From NCBI GenBank assembly GCA_026874595.1, contig CM049307.1, positions 54,352,370 to 54,416,369 of the forward strand: a stretch of DNA of 64,000 bases, given 5' to 3'. This document shows, in pieces, positions 1,517-56,429 of the stretch. The notes beneath the pieces are model-generated. The model was not told where the DNA came from. It was given only the letters and a program-made list of their open reading frames with translations, and did not search any database. Positions within the stretch are counted from its first letter, which is position 1. Every line of letters begins with the position of its first letter. The DNA comes from Sipunculus nudus. Its lineage: Eukaryota > Annelida > Sipuncula > Golfingiida > Sipunculidae. The translations under genes were made by a program, and so were the position numbers.

Positions 1517-3352
1517 ATGTTACACCTGAAATGTGAAATTGCCCATTTTATGAAATGGGCAAAATCACTAAATTCTGTTTGCCAGTTTCATGAAATGTGC
1601 AAGAAAACTGTTCCGCATTTCATGAAATGGGCACCTTTTAAACCGACAAATCTTTGATGGATTCTGATTACACATTCATTCTGATATTAAATTAGGTATA
1701 CTAACACAGGCATACATGTTAACAAAACCCTAGTTTGTATCAAATGATAACAAAACATTTGAATAATTCACTACATTTTATTTTTATTATAAACATATTA
1801 TATCAAACATATCATATTGATCATATAAGCAAATATAATACTATTTTGCACCTATGACAATGTAACATTTGACTATTTCAGTGCATGTTCTGATATTTTA
1901 AGAATAGTTATCATGGGGTTCTCACTCAAATGTTCATCATCTTATGAAACATTTAACTATTTCAGGTTGTTCAAATGTTGTTTTCTTGATCAAAATAATT
2001 TGTTAACGTGGCACAATTGAAAATATGGTTTAATTGCAGCAGTTTCAATATTTGATGTAATGAAAATACATGTACTTTGTTGTATTTCAGCAGGAACTTT
2101 AAGGTTTTTTTTTAATTTGAAACTTTTAAGATCTCTTATCTCTATATAAGTTATACTTTAAAAGTATATAATATAATATTCTTTATTTCTCACATCTCAA
2201 GAGAAAACATACTGACTCAGTGATATTTAATGGCAGGTTGCTATAATTAATCTTAAAAATGTTTAAATAATTTCTATGTATAACAATTGGTTCACTTTGA
2301 GTTTGATCTGTTGCTTTGGTAAATATTAAGTCAGATTTCTAGTTAAGGGGTTCACAATCATGTAAATGAGATGCTGTTTTCAGTAGTGTCTTACAGATTT
2401 TCGGATTATTAGGGCTATTTGCCAGTGCTGAGAAAAAGAAATTATAAAAAAAATTAAAAAATAAAAAATAGCTCAGTTAAATGTTTTATTTGTTATATCA
2501 TTAAGTTGAAGAAATATATGCTATCAATATGTAATATTTATCTATGATCATCATGTAATATATGTTCAAACAGCATTTAGGTATAAAATTTTAAACTGTG
2601 CATCTACACACTTTTCTGGAATTTTAATAATTTAGAAATATATATTATGAATATCACCAAAACACCAATAGGCAAATCATTTGAAAATAATTGGACAAGC
2701 ATGGTGTACTTCTGACTCAAATGTCACCATTTTGACCAACAGTTAAGAAATAATCCTTTGATTTACAAAGATCAACTCTAATAAAATCAACTTTTATCAA
2801 GCAGTTGAAACAAACCAACCTACAAAGCACGAACTCATTACTGACTCATTGGTGTCAGTTAATGAGTACAAAGAGTACTTTGAAGGTTACATTAATTAAG
2901 TGATAACTGGGCCATAGCTATGAGATAAATGAAACTTACCAATACCAGTTACTCATATTTCATGTACTAAAATAAATAAATGTAATTGGTATTAAATAAA
3001 TAATATAATATAAAGCTTAGTAATTATTATGTACATTTATATATTAATAATTGAAAACTAGATTTATATAAATATATACATATAACTATACTTGTAAAAT
3101 GTAAGCTGCAAATACATATGAATTTTTTTCACTTTATCAAATACAATCCATCAAAATAGGCTAGGGTGTCCCACATGGCATTTACTCATTCAATTAGTCA
3201 CGAGGATTCCTTCAAATGCTCCTTTTTACCTTACAGAACTGAAAAATATATTGCCGGTTGTTAAGTTGCTCATTTCATGAAATAGACAAGCAGAATTTGT
3301 GACTTTGTCCGTTTCATGATATGAAATGAAATTTCACATTTTGGGCGTAACA
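1517..3352. mobile_element. Foldback/MITE-type element with ~85-bp inverted termini
   Basis: The left end (1517-1602) and the reverse complement of the right end (3267-3352) align over most of about 85 bp. Shared blocks include GTTAC, AATGTGAAATT, ACAAATTCTG (or TAAATTCTG) and TTTCATGAAATG. The interior is very AT-rich and has no ORF. Both ends sit in TA dinucleotide tracts, so the duplicated target cannot be read. Several copies of the palindrome GCCCATTTCATGAAATGGGC or variants occur near both ends (1541, 1588, 1617, 3271, 3311) and outside the right end (3717, 3760, 3780). No transposase is seen, so this is a non-autonomous element. Confidence 0.7.
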
Positions 3353-3716
3353 TATATATATATATATATATATATATACATCCCATCATTCAATATCGAT
3401 CATGGTGTTATTGGTATGTTTTCTCTGATGTTGGAAACATAAAATATTATAAACATTATTACAGTACATCAACCGTTAAAAATATATTGTGAGACAATAA
3501 TCCTCTGACTGATCATTAAGTTTTTTTCTAAATAAAGAACTCAAGAATTTCCTATTATTCCTTATAATTAAAAGGAGTAGTTGTATATAAATTCTTGCAG
3601 ATTGATTCCCATTGTTACTATTGAATAATCAAATAAATAGATATTTTCAAATGTTAATATTGCTAAAATGACATATTCGTGGCCAGAATCCAGCAGAAAT
3701 TCTCGGTTTTAAATGT

Positions 3717-3797
3717 GCCCATTTCATAATGGGCAACATGTCAGTTATCCTTCAATTTCATGAAATGGACAGCATTTTTGCCCATTTCATGTACTAG
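3717..3797. repeat. Extra cluster of GCCCATTTCATGAAATGGGC-like palindromes
   Basis: Three imperfect copies (GCCCATTTCATAATGGGC, TTTCATGAAATGGAC, GCCCATTTCATG) lie 365-445 bp beyond the right end of the 1517-3352 element. They may mark an outer, older boundary of the same element or a second insertion. Confidence 0.5.
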
Positions 3798-3823
3798 GAA
3801 TGTATGTTTATGTATATGTATGT

Positions 3824-3868
3824 GAAAGAGAGAGAGAGAGACAGACAGACAGAGAGGGGGGGGGGGGA
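3824..3868. repeat. GA/CAGA simple repeat ending in a G10 run
   Basis: A (GA)n tract passes into ACAGACAGACAGAGA and then an uninterrupted G run. Apparent ORFs across it are compositional artefacts. Confidence 0.85.
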
Positions 3869-4639
3869 CGCTGTCATATATTAGTAACACCACATGCATC
3901 CACGTGCATCACCCTGCCCCTACTTGATTTCTGTATTGGACAAAGTCCATGGTGTCAGGGTTTTCCGGTTTACATCGTGATCACTTCTTGTGATAGCGTT
4001 AATGCGGTCAACCGTACTTGATCGATTAACTGATATTATAACTGGTTTCATTACGCTGGAACATGTGCCCTTCAGGCTTATAGAGATTAATTTTACCAAT
4101 ACATGGGTTAAATCAATACCCAGAAATGAAAAAAATCATAACTTTAAAAATACTTATTATGGGAAAATATTCTAGTTATTGTCGTCCTTTGTTAGGCTAC
4201 TTTCAAAACTGATCAAAGTCCATGCAGATGAAAACTAGAGAGTAGTCAGAAACCACAAATTTACCTCCGTCAAGATCCAAATCAAACTTTGGTATGTGCT
4301 ATACAGAAAGGTGTACGTCACAGTTAATCCTATAGTTGGATCATAGGTGAGCTCTGCTCGTTAGAGCAAAGGCAAACGACGGTGTGAGGAGTGCATATTG
4401 ATATGCCGCCAGTACACAACGTCCTTTTTGTAGAAGAAACTCTTTCTTTTGCCAGAATATAGGCTCGGCATATGCCATATTTTAATTATATTAATCGTAA
4501 TAAATGATTTTGAGGACGAAATGCAAAATTCTATTATCATTTATAAGGATCTCTGCTCCGGTCTGGTGATTGATATTGTATGGTCATAATGCTACTTGTA
4601 TCATAAAATGCGACGACTACGAACTGACTAGACTACGTT

Positions 4640-4900
4640 TTGCCTAGTGATTACCGGCTTAAGGGGTAAAGCACAGAACCCAAGGCCTAGATAAGAGGTC
4701 GTGAGTTCGAATCTCAGCCGAGGAGTAGGGAGATTTTTCATTCTTTACCCTTACCCAGGTTGAGCGCTCCGCAGGCTTGTCTACCCCGCAACCGTGTTTC
4801 ACTAACAAACGAATGCTCCTTTCAGGGGTTTCTCGGTGTTATTATGCAGGAATGGGAAAGACAATCAGGTTTCTGTACACAGGTACAAATACACGGGTAC
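4640..4900 (+). repeat. Probable tRNA-derived SINE
   Basis: The segment at 4650-4735 carries a polymerase III B-box-like GAGTTCGAATCTC (4703-4715). About 45 bp upstream is CTTAAGGGGTAAAGC, a degenerate A box. The following GTTGAGCGCTCCGCAGGCTTGTCTAC resembles the body at 29385-29412 (GTGAGCGCTC...CTTATTAGACAAGCTG). It cannot fold as an intact tRNA. A SINE is the best reading; boundaries are approximate. Confidence 0.45.
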
Positions 4901-55029: not shown

Positions 55030-55416
55030 CATTCTCTCTCTCTCTCTCTATTTTTTTTTTTTTTTTTTTTTACTTTCTCTCTCTTTCTTTCCCTCTCCCT
55101 TTTTCTTTATCTCTCTCTTTATCTCTCTTTTCTTTCTTTCTATCTCTCCTATAAAGCCTATATCGAATTTCGAATAAATATTATATAAAGTATAGGTCTT
55201 TGTTACTTTTTTTCTCTGATTCAGGTTCTTTCTCTGTCTCTCTTTCTCTCTCTTTCTTTCTTTTTTTCTCTCTCTCCTTTATATATCGGATAAATATTTT
55301 ATATAGTATAGCTCACTTTATCTTTTCTCTGTCTCTTTCGCTCTCTCTCACTTCCTCTCTCTCTCTCATATATATATATATATATATATATATATATATA
55401 TATATATATATATATA
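55030..55416. repeat. CT-rich and TA microsatellites inside the foldback element
   Basis: Three CT/T-rich blocks (55030-55150, 55228-55280, 55320-55368), separated by related spacers containing CGAATAAATATTATATA or CGGATAAATATTTTATA, then a (TA)n tract to 55416. The spacer similarity suggests tandem duplication of a CT-plus-spacer unit. Confidence 0.85.
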
Positions 55417-55435
55417 AGAGTTAAAGCCATGTTTT

Positions 55436-55530
55436 AGTCTGTAGTTGAATTACCACCTGACGAAGAAGCCTGTGTGCTTCGAAAGCTCGTATGTTAATAA
55501 ACTAGTAAGTCTAGTTAGTCTATCTAAAAA
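55436..55530. repeat. Short repeat containing a GACGAAGAAGCC...CGAAAGCTCG hairpin
   Basis: CCTGACGAAGAAGCCTGTG followed by TGCTTCGAAAGCTCGT contains the inverted pair GAAGC/GCTTC. Such 'GACGAAG...CGAAA' words resemble untranslated ends of some retroelements, but the family is not identified. Its position inside the foldback element suggests a nested fragment. Confidence 0.35.
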
Positions 55531-55677
55531 AGTCACTGTTTATCTTTACCTTCGCTAAATATATATATATATATTTATATATATATAACTTTGCATGATG
55601 AAAAACAACACGTTATACCGCTCTGGCCTAGTCTGTAGGCCATAGAGCACTTTTCATCGAAGGGTAACACTACCTTC

Positions 55678-55765
55678 TATATATATATATATATATATAT
55701 ATATATATATATATATATATATATATATATATATATATATATATATATATATATATATATATTTT
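55678..55765. repeat. (TA)n microsatellite, ~88 bp
   Basis: Pure TA followed by degenerate TATATTTA repeats to about 55,870. Confidence 0.97.
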
Positions 55766-56429
55766 TATATATATATTTATATATATTCTGATATATGTAA
55801 ATATATAGCATAATATTAAATAATATATATATATACTGATATATGAATATATGTATTCATATATATATCTCCAACTTATATGTATGTATATCATAACATT
55901 AAATAACTTCATATATACATAAATATAATCTTTTTAATTTTACATGGATTGTACAAAAAGTTATTATAACTAATCGCGGCACTCTCCATGGCTCCGATGA
56001 TTTAAAGCAATTTATGCAAAAGGTGTTGCACGGTTTGGTGAGAAATCATCCGACATCATCCAAGTTATATGCATCGTTAGTTATTTTGTTTGCTGGACTA
56101 ACTGAGAATTGTGCTTTATTCTAAATAACATGAATATGATGTTTTGTGCTGAATAGGCCTACGGTTAGAAAACTAGTTGTCATGTGCGCGATGGTGGCGC
56201 TCGGTAAAAAGCCCCTAGCGCTCGGGAGTTCCAAGTATGTAAGAACACTGCCCGTAGTTAGAGCAGGGTATGCGATCGGTAAAAAGACCGAGCCCTCGGT
56301 AGCCCCACGCGGGTCAGAGCAATGCCTGGTGTGAATCCAGGGTAGCGCTCGGTAAAAAGTCCTACCGAGCGCTAGCGCTCGGTACGCTCGGTAGCGCTCG
56401 GTAAAAAGACCGACCGATTTGTACATAGT

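Follow-up and report, generated by a model that had tools for sequence, protein, structure and literature searches.

Why are short words, repeated in both orientations, crowded at six separate places in one stretch of an annelid genome? The stretch is a 64,000-nucleotide window of Sipunculus nudus DNA (contig CM049307.1, positions 54,352,370 to 54,416,369), and the places are called here E1 (1.5-3.8 kb), E2 (8.0 kb), E3 (26.8-27.4 kb), E4 (48.2-48.6 kb), E5 (48.8-49.2 kb) and E6 (54.6-56.4 kb). The original prediction, made from the letters of the window, regarded them as six unrelated elements, each built by iterating a private word that might be a transposase-binding site or a hairpin multiplying by template switching. 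Our analysis indicates that the six places are probably DNA transposons of several kinds, either their ends or the complete elements, with the words as putative sites of a family-specific transposition protein. This reading draws on the position of the arrays, the stronger conservation of the E2, E5 and E6 words, two interiors behind one E6 array, target-site duplications in E3 and E6, and changes in array length. The predicted behaviour of the word as a terminal, sequence-specific site agrees with its place in terminal arrays, and the word is the best conserved part of E2, E5 and E6.

The enrichment of words was measured against 100 dinucleotide shuffles of the same stretch, and every word exceeded its shuffle maximum, as had been predicted. 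The observed and maximum counts are 6/0 for E1 (up to five mismatches), 11/3 for GGTTC of E2 (exact), 6/4 for CCGTACGG and 11/4 for CCGCACGG of E3 (one mismatch), 8/1 for E4 (three mismatches), 11/2 for E5 (two mismatches) and 17/1 for E6 (one mismatch). The words had been picked after reading; therefore a second scan was made without a preselected word, counting repeated 8-mer pairs in 637 segments of 400 bp. The best segments of all six places lie above the median of 5 pairs, with 119 for E6, 47 for E1, 46 for E5, 42 for E4, 32 for E3 and 21 for E2, the weakest of the six. The property is not confined to these places, because plain tandem repeats at 31.6, 15.4, 61.8 and 6.2 kb and two other stretches, at 35.4-35.9 and 59.6-60.3 kb, score high too. 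Elsewhere in the window the E6 word matches 0 times, that of E1 once, that of E4 6 times, CCGTACGG and CCGCACGG of E3 6 and 12 times, that of E5 34 times and GGTTC of E2 78 times. Counts alone cannot show that the E2 and E5 words are private, given how short they are or how loosely they were matched.

Genome copies were sought in the assembly of 1,426,538,692 bases in 153 contigs, where the best 40 first-look candidates per element were scored, so that all counts are lower bounds. There are at least 308 matches for E6 (best 40 of 5094 candidates), 152 for E1 (of 287), 149 for E4 (of 325), 53 for E3 (of 693), 45 for E5 (of 102) and 41 for E2 (of 144). Words are genuinely enriched at each of the six places, and every one of them has genome copies. 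A scan for end tips across the window gave mostly chance matches.

In E6 two inverted word arrays enclose a unique interior. Six full copies, the one in the window among them, measure 1793-1867 bp, and a seventh (L007) is without a good right tip. The full copies carry 9-13 words on the left and 10-13 on the right, with 0 words between the arrays in all seven copies, including that of the window. In the six-copy alignment, identity is 96% in word columns, 89-90% in spacers and 78% in the interior. The number of words at the very tip varies among copies and also between both ends of a single copy. The flanking 8-bp duplication is exact in L002, L003, L005, L006 and L127 and has one difference in L004; in the window, TTTGTACA flanks both ends with one or two extra bases.

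The 29-bp tip of E6 has 91 exact occurrences in the genome and its reversed control has 0. Paired by eye, the tips form 24 convergent pairs, 545-8696 bp apart, the longest of which may be nested structures. Among the 24 pairs, L125, L126 and L127 were inspected whole and L128 in part. L125 and L126 are 98% alike, and together with the read part of L128 they have a common longer interior, which in blastn matches the E6 interior over 124 bp only. Two quite different interiors stand behind one E6 word array, as is expected of a terminal site. L126 is flanked by CCTAATTTC at both ends. L127 is a 0.55-kb version with GGCAGTAG on either side; it matches part of E6 (72.5% over 593 bp) and is therefore a shortened relative of E6, not a third interior.

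The long E6-type element also contains an open frame (L126:1015-1914, L125:1928-2290 and L128:903-1771), which in L126 has 300 residues. The L125 frame matches the Pfam family NADAR at 8.5e-10, above the curated cut-off. The L126 frame matches NADAR at 1e-4 and a GDSL-like lipase at 1.4e-4, both under the cut-off, and a search of solved structures with it gave a single match with an E value of 1.6. The frame is a possible cargo gene candidate; an SGNH gene carried by a Helitron has been published for platyfish (PMC4021074). The two frames searched in the long interiors of L125, L126 and L128 yielded only the GDSL-like and NADAR matches, and a genome-wide search for the P-superfamily transposase family was not run.

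In E2 and E5 a private motif, present in both orientations, forms a subterminal array at one end of a longer repeat. Copies of E2 start with TACACTCTTAGAAAAAAGGGTTC and copies of E5 with TACACTCTAAAAGCTGGAAA, the common start being TACACTCT.A.A. The count of six unrelated elements is thus too high, because E2 and E5 begin alike. L107 has 19 E2 words within bases 91-341 and a single one over the next 3.1 kb. L107 and L099 match to at least L107 base 2154, and L098 to base 1067. The window copy of E2 is what remains of a one-end array; in other copies the repeat to which this array belongs extends over at least 2.1 kb. E5 reaches at least 49833. With TACACTCTTAGAA and TACACTCTAAAAG as the left ends of E2 and E5, a CACT(A/G) terminal inverted repeat was sought; the right end of E2 was not found in 3.4-3.5 kb of three copies, nor was that of E5 within 3.5 kb.

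The words of these two repeats have drifted less than their spacers. Compared with the consensus of 13 other copies, the E2 of the window retains 66 of 70 word positions and 74 of 119 spacer positions, an excess that 0 of 188 rotated masks equal. Copy L075 retains 58/65 word and 70/111 spacer positions (1/188 rotations as good), and L078 retains 61/70 and 83/118 (10/188). For E5 the words are 92.2% identical versus 89.1%, with 3 of 382 rotations as good.

E3 and E4 are filled with their words. The claim that an element consists of its own word fails for E1, E2, E5 and E6, whose interiors are without the terminal word, an observation that the original prediction itself had named as refuting it. 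The 562-bp consensus of E3, with ends AGCCTCGGTCACAACC, was built from 30 loci. The 3-bp flanks are identical in 15 of the 30 copies, 13 of those being TTA or TAA, and the other 15 do not match exactly. A 3-bp TTA or TAA target-site duplication is the rule of the PIF/Harbinger family, and E3 has this duplication. Extra material is present in 6 of the 30 loci. In L036 the terminal 76-bp unit, including the inverted end, is repeated about eight times head to tail, where the usual E3 has two copies; L033 has about three. L054 and L059 look like E3 inserted in E3: a full E3 is surrounded by further E3 sequence, split at the same inner position in the two loci, and in L054 it has TTA at either side. 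L037 and L058 contain neighbouring E3 copies.

Elsewhere in the genome E4 carries units of about 248 bp in tandem, roughly a dozen of them in L061, and each unit holds several TTACAATAGTG words. The word number ranges from 6 to 56 across 14 sequences including the window. The right end of E4 consists of the word itself, and right-hand palindromes are present along with the tandem units. Most copies end in TTATTACAATAGTGGTTGCAAC or nearly so; L064, L090, L093 and L096 are slightly different, and the window copy is decayed. L096 suggests that the left end of E4 mirrors the right end. The predicted amplification of a terminal site is borne out by L036 of E3, by the tips of E6 and by the array length of E4. 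Separately, a unit at 48564-48819 (79% to 47534-47790) exactly occupies the stretch that separates E4 from E5; it holds one of two minus-strand matches to U5 spliceosomal RNA, at 47605-47721 and 48635-48751.

E1 had been described as one element from 1.5 to 3.8 kb. Words do lie near its two ends, yet the repeat is about 1.83 kb long and the words at 3684-3800 are outside it. The match of full genome copies to the window spans about 1539 to 3381, and words near either end were seen in the seven copies with fetched ends. Those seven copies also have in common an (AT)n run past the right end and what follows it. They therefore sit in a larger repeat, and for that reason their target-site duplications are unreadable. 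The left end, GTTACACTCC, with GTTACGCCCC as its inverted partner, was considered as a relative of the E2/E5 start. At 1375-1504, immediately left of E1, fragments resembling its ends stand on opposite sides of an (AC)n(AT)n run and point towards each other.

The spacing of the words has a register of its own. The E2 consensus has 20 words in strictly alternating orientation, and 11 of the 19 successive spacings are exactly 11 bp. There are 14 word pairs at a distance of 10-12 bp, whereas 2000 random placements gave 3.5 on average and never more than 10. In E3, CCGCACGG taken with two mismatches gives 13 pairs within 10-12 bp, every one of them at exactly 11 bp (mean 4.3 and maximum 13 in 2000 random placements; maximum 5 in 200 shuffles), and for CCGTACGG with one mismatch 2 pairs are in register (mean 0.3, maximum 3). 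Tandem duplication may have left the 11-bp register behind, or the face of the helix may impose it. In fish there are repeats whose GGTAC or GGTTC words alternate at intervals of about 11 bp and whose tip resembles that of E2; a text search for them gave nothing relevant, and no published description of an 11-bp register turned up in a limited literature search. It is rather improbable that unrelated transposon families converged on a palindromic half-site in alternating orientation about every 11 bp. Were this so, a family-specific protein would form a filament along one face of the DNA, coating the end, and the private word would be the recognition key, new families changing the word and keeping the spacing.

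To account for these arrays, we propose that each word is probably the binding site for a family-specific protein, either a transposase or a TNPA-type accessory. That a protein binds the words, and which protein, we infer; the words are mostly palindromic, which suggests a dimer-type site. A large number of sites close to the ends would concentrate this protein there and assist end pairing. The interior could then be passenger DNA of any kind, including more array as in E3 and E4. The arrays would lengthen and shorten via tandem duplication and exchange between both ends, and selection for mobility would retain the word while the spacers drift.

Such a design is already known from the subterminal repeats of CACTA elements and from Galileo and Tetris. 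According to passages of PMC2613891, TNPA binds many subterminal repeats in CACTA elements and is required for transposition, and the motif is family-specific. In En/Spm and in soybean Tgm1/Tgmt many copies of this motif lie near the ends, are capable of forming palindromes and are commoner at one end, as in E2, E5 and perhaps E1; in En/Spm a TNPA-type protein binds them. However, E2 and E5 start with TACACTC, not CACTA, and their right ends, duplications and transposase were not found here.

Parts of PMC3573991 describe Galileo, of the P superfamily, and Foldback elements as having long inverted ends with internal repeats, whose number varies by end and by copy. The end repeats of Galileo hold secondary transposase sites there, and multiple sites are called a convergent trait; THAP binding sites are the subject of PMC3688188. 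E6 has long inverted ends of repeated units of this sort. It differs from Galileo in having repeats that are words of about 10 bp, and no P-type transposase was found in the frames searched. E6 is not filed as Galileo, because its duplications, as in the five exact loci, are 8 bp and not 7 bp.

Tetris of Drosophila virilis, in sections of PMC4079207, is a non-autonomous foldback element with tandem repeats of about 220 bp that seem to be derived from its outer end, and more sites are proposed to raise transposition. E3, with its 76-bp unit that includes the end, and E4, with its 248-bp units, are comparable in design; E3 differs in having TTA/TAA duplications. E4 also resembles the dispersed Cg_HINE Helentrons of oyster, with short satellite-like central tandem arrays and a 3' palindrome (described in part of PMC7492417), but in E4 the word itself makes the right end, a left module and subterminal inverted repeats were not delimited, and Helentron ends were not demonstrated. 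The idea of site amplification appears in print in the same passages on Galileo and Tetris. Our data fit a mechanism of the CACTA/Galileo/Tetris type, by analogy with which a private, putative dimer-type site would be multiplied near the ends and kept by selection. New here are the families (taken without repeat-library comparison), the number of E6 tip pairs, the two interiors behind one array and the 11-bp register.

Several results weigh against the words being protein sites. No transposase or binding protein was identified in the stretches read; ten translated stretches of L107, from one copy and not in all frames, gave no transposase and three weak Pfam matches below cut-offs, and seven frames of the window gave 0 Pfam families at 0.001. 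The word columns of E3 are scarcely better conserved (0.967 vs 0.953 off CpG), a difference attained by 3.3% of rotations off CpG and 7.3% with all columns. The excess in E5 is weak with GTTTCA alone (22/382 rotations), the E6 identities come without a rotation control, and a clean duplication is absent at L125. The 11-bp register is firm in E2 and suggestive in E3, because the E3 excess depends on word definition: exact CCGCA shows none, with 2 pairs versus a mean of 1.6. The words of E4, E5 and E6 are not significantly phased. Gene conversion between inverted arrays could alone be sufficient to keep the words alike, and the E2 array has a strong single-strand fold, with z of -10.05 versus shuffles for L107 and -5.64 for the window copy.

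The last two points lead to the view that the arrays are mutational by-products, multiplied and homogenised by hairpins, slippage, template switching and gene conversion of inverted ends, with no binding function. Array length does vary at several scales, from E6 tips to the 76-bp units of E3 and the 248-bp units of E4, in keeping with such an origin. The folding arms of E2 speak otherwise. Among 633 arm cells, 576 are the same, 14 are changed on one side, 6 are compensated and 37 are broken, so that the arms conserve letters rather than pairing. A pure hairpin reading is therefore rejected, and the hairpin or template-switching branch of the original prediction is not supported, though it may still be a source of new word copies. 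Moreover, diverged and non-neighbouring E2 copies retain the words, and the word spacing is regular despite the drifting spacer letters. We consider the by-product explanation unlikely.

Less likely still is that the words are transcription-factor or chromatin sites of the host or the element, forming promoter or enhancer arrays whose terminal position is secondary. A precedent exists in Caenorhabditis repeats co-opted as germline promoters (PMC9757741), but the E6 words stand at the very tips, at both ends and behind differing interiors. Chance, meaning that short words were noticed by eye in a window of low GC content, could be suspected since the words were chosen after reading and loose ones such as that of E5 match often outside their element; the shuffles, the word-free scan and the genome copies of all six leave it practically no probability, and it was ruled out.

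If the words are transposition sites, as we favour, the arrays form a countable record of what the transposition machinery may recognise. A single genome here offers several families and many copies, with differing words and word numbers and, for E6, differing interiors. This opens the question of whether word number sets mobility and whether helical-repeat spacing matters. Annotators should beware that transposons with kilobase-long bodies can be marked at their ends by short words in both orientations. The features are collected in Table 1.

Table 1. Positions of the word-bearing elements and their parts in the 64,000-nucleotide window.
Feature	Positions	Strand	Details
E1 repeat, ~1.83 kb	1519..3352	.	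inverted ends GTTAC(A/G)C.., words GCCCATTTCATGAAATGGGC near both ends, unique AT-rich interior; ends by eye
E1 left word array	1541..1632	.	3 matches
E1 right end	3268..3352	.	one word match at 3268 and inverted end
Detached E1-type end fragment	3684..3800	.	inverted match to 1550-1666, 74%; beyond the matched range of the E1 copy
E2 decayed one-end word array (GGTTC/GAACC)	8003..8187	+	word matches, genome copies
E3, 585-bp copy of 562-bp-consensus element	26838..27422	+	ends AGCCTCGGTCACAACC, TAA both sides, CCGCACGG/CCGTACGG words throughout
E4 decayed copy, 6 words	48207..48560	+	elsewhere tandem units of ~248 bp
E5 repeat, word array in first ~400 bp	48826..49833	+	genome copies; right end not found
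E6 element	54617..56417	.	two inverted word arrays, unique interior; TTTGTACA at 54609-54616 and 56418-56425
E6 left word array (ACCGAGCGCT)	54631..54908	+	word matches
E6 right word array	56196..56402	-	word matches

Other features of the window lie apart from the six places. Two intronless open frames, at 33159-34892 and 45364-46905, encode 577 and 513 residues and are 91% alike over 1285 bases, with no Pfam family at 0.001. Among the high scorers of the word-free scan, 35550-36037 consists of direct repeats of 63-69 bp. A single tandem family, with a unit of about 145 bp that contains several AGGTCA-like words, forms the arrays at 15373-15958 and 61746-62340.

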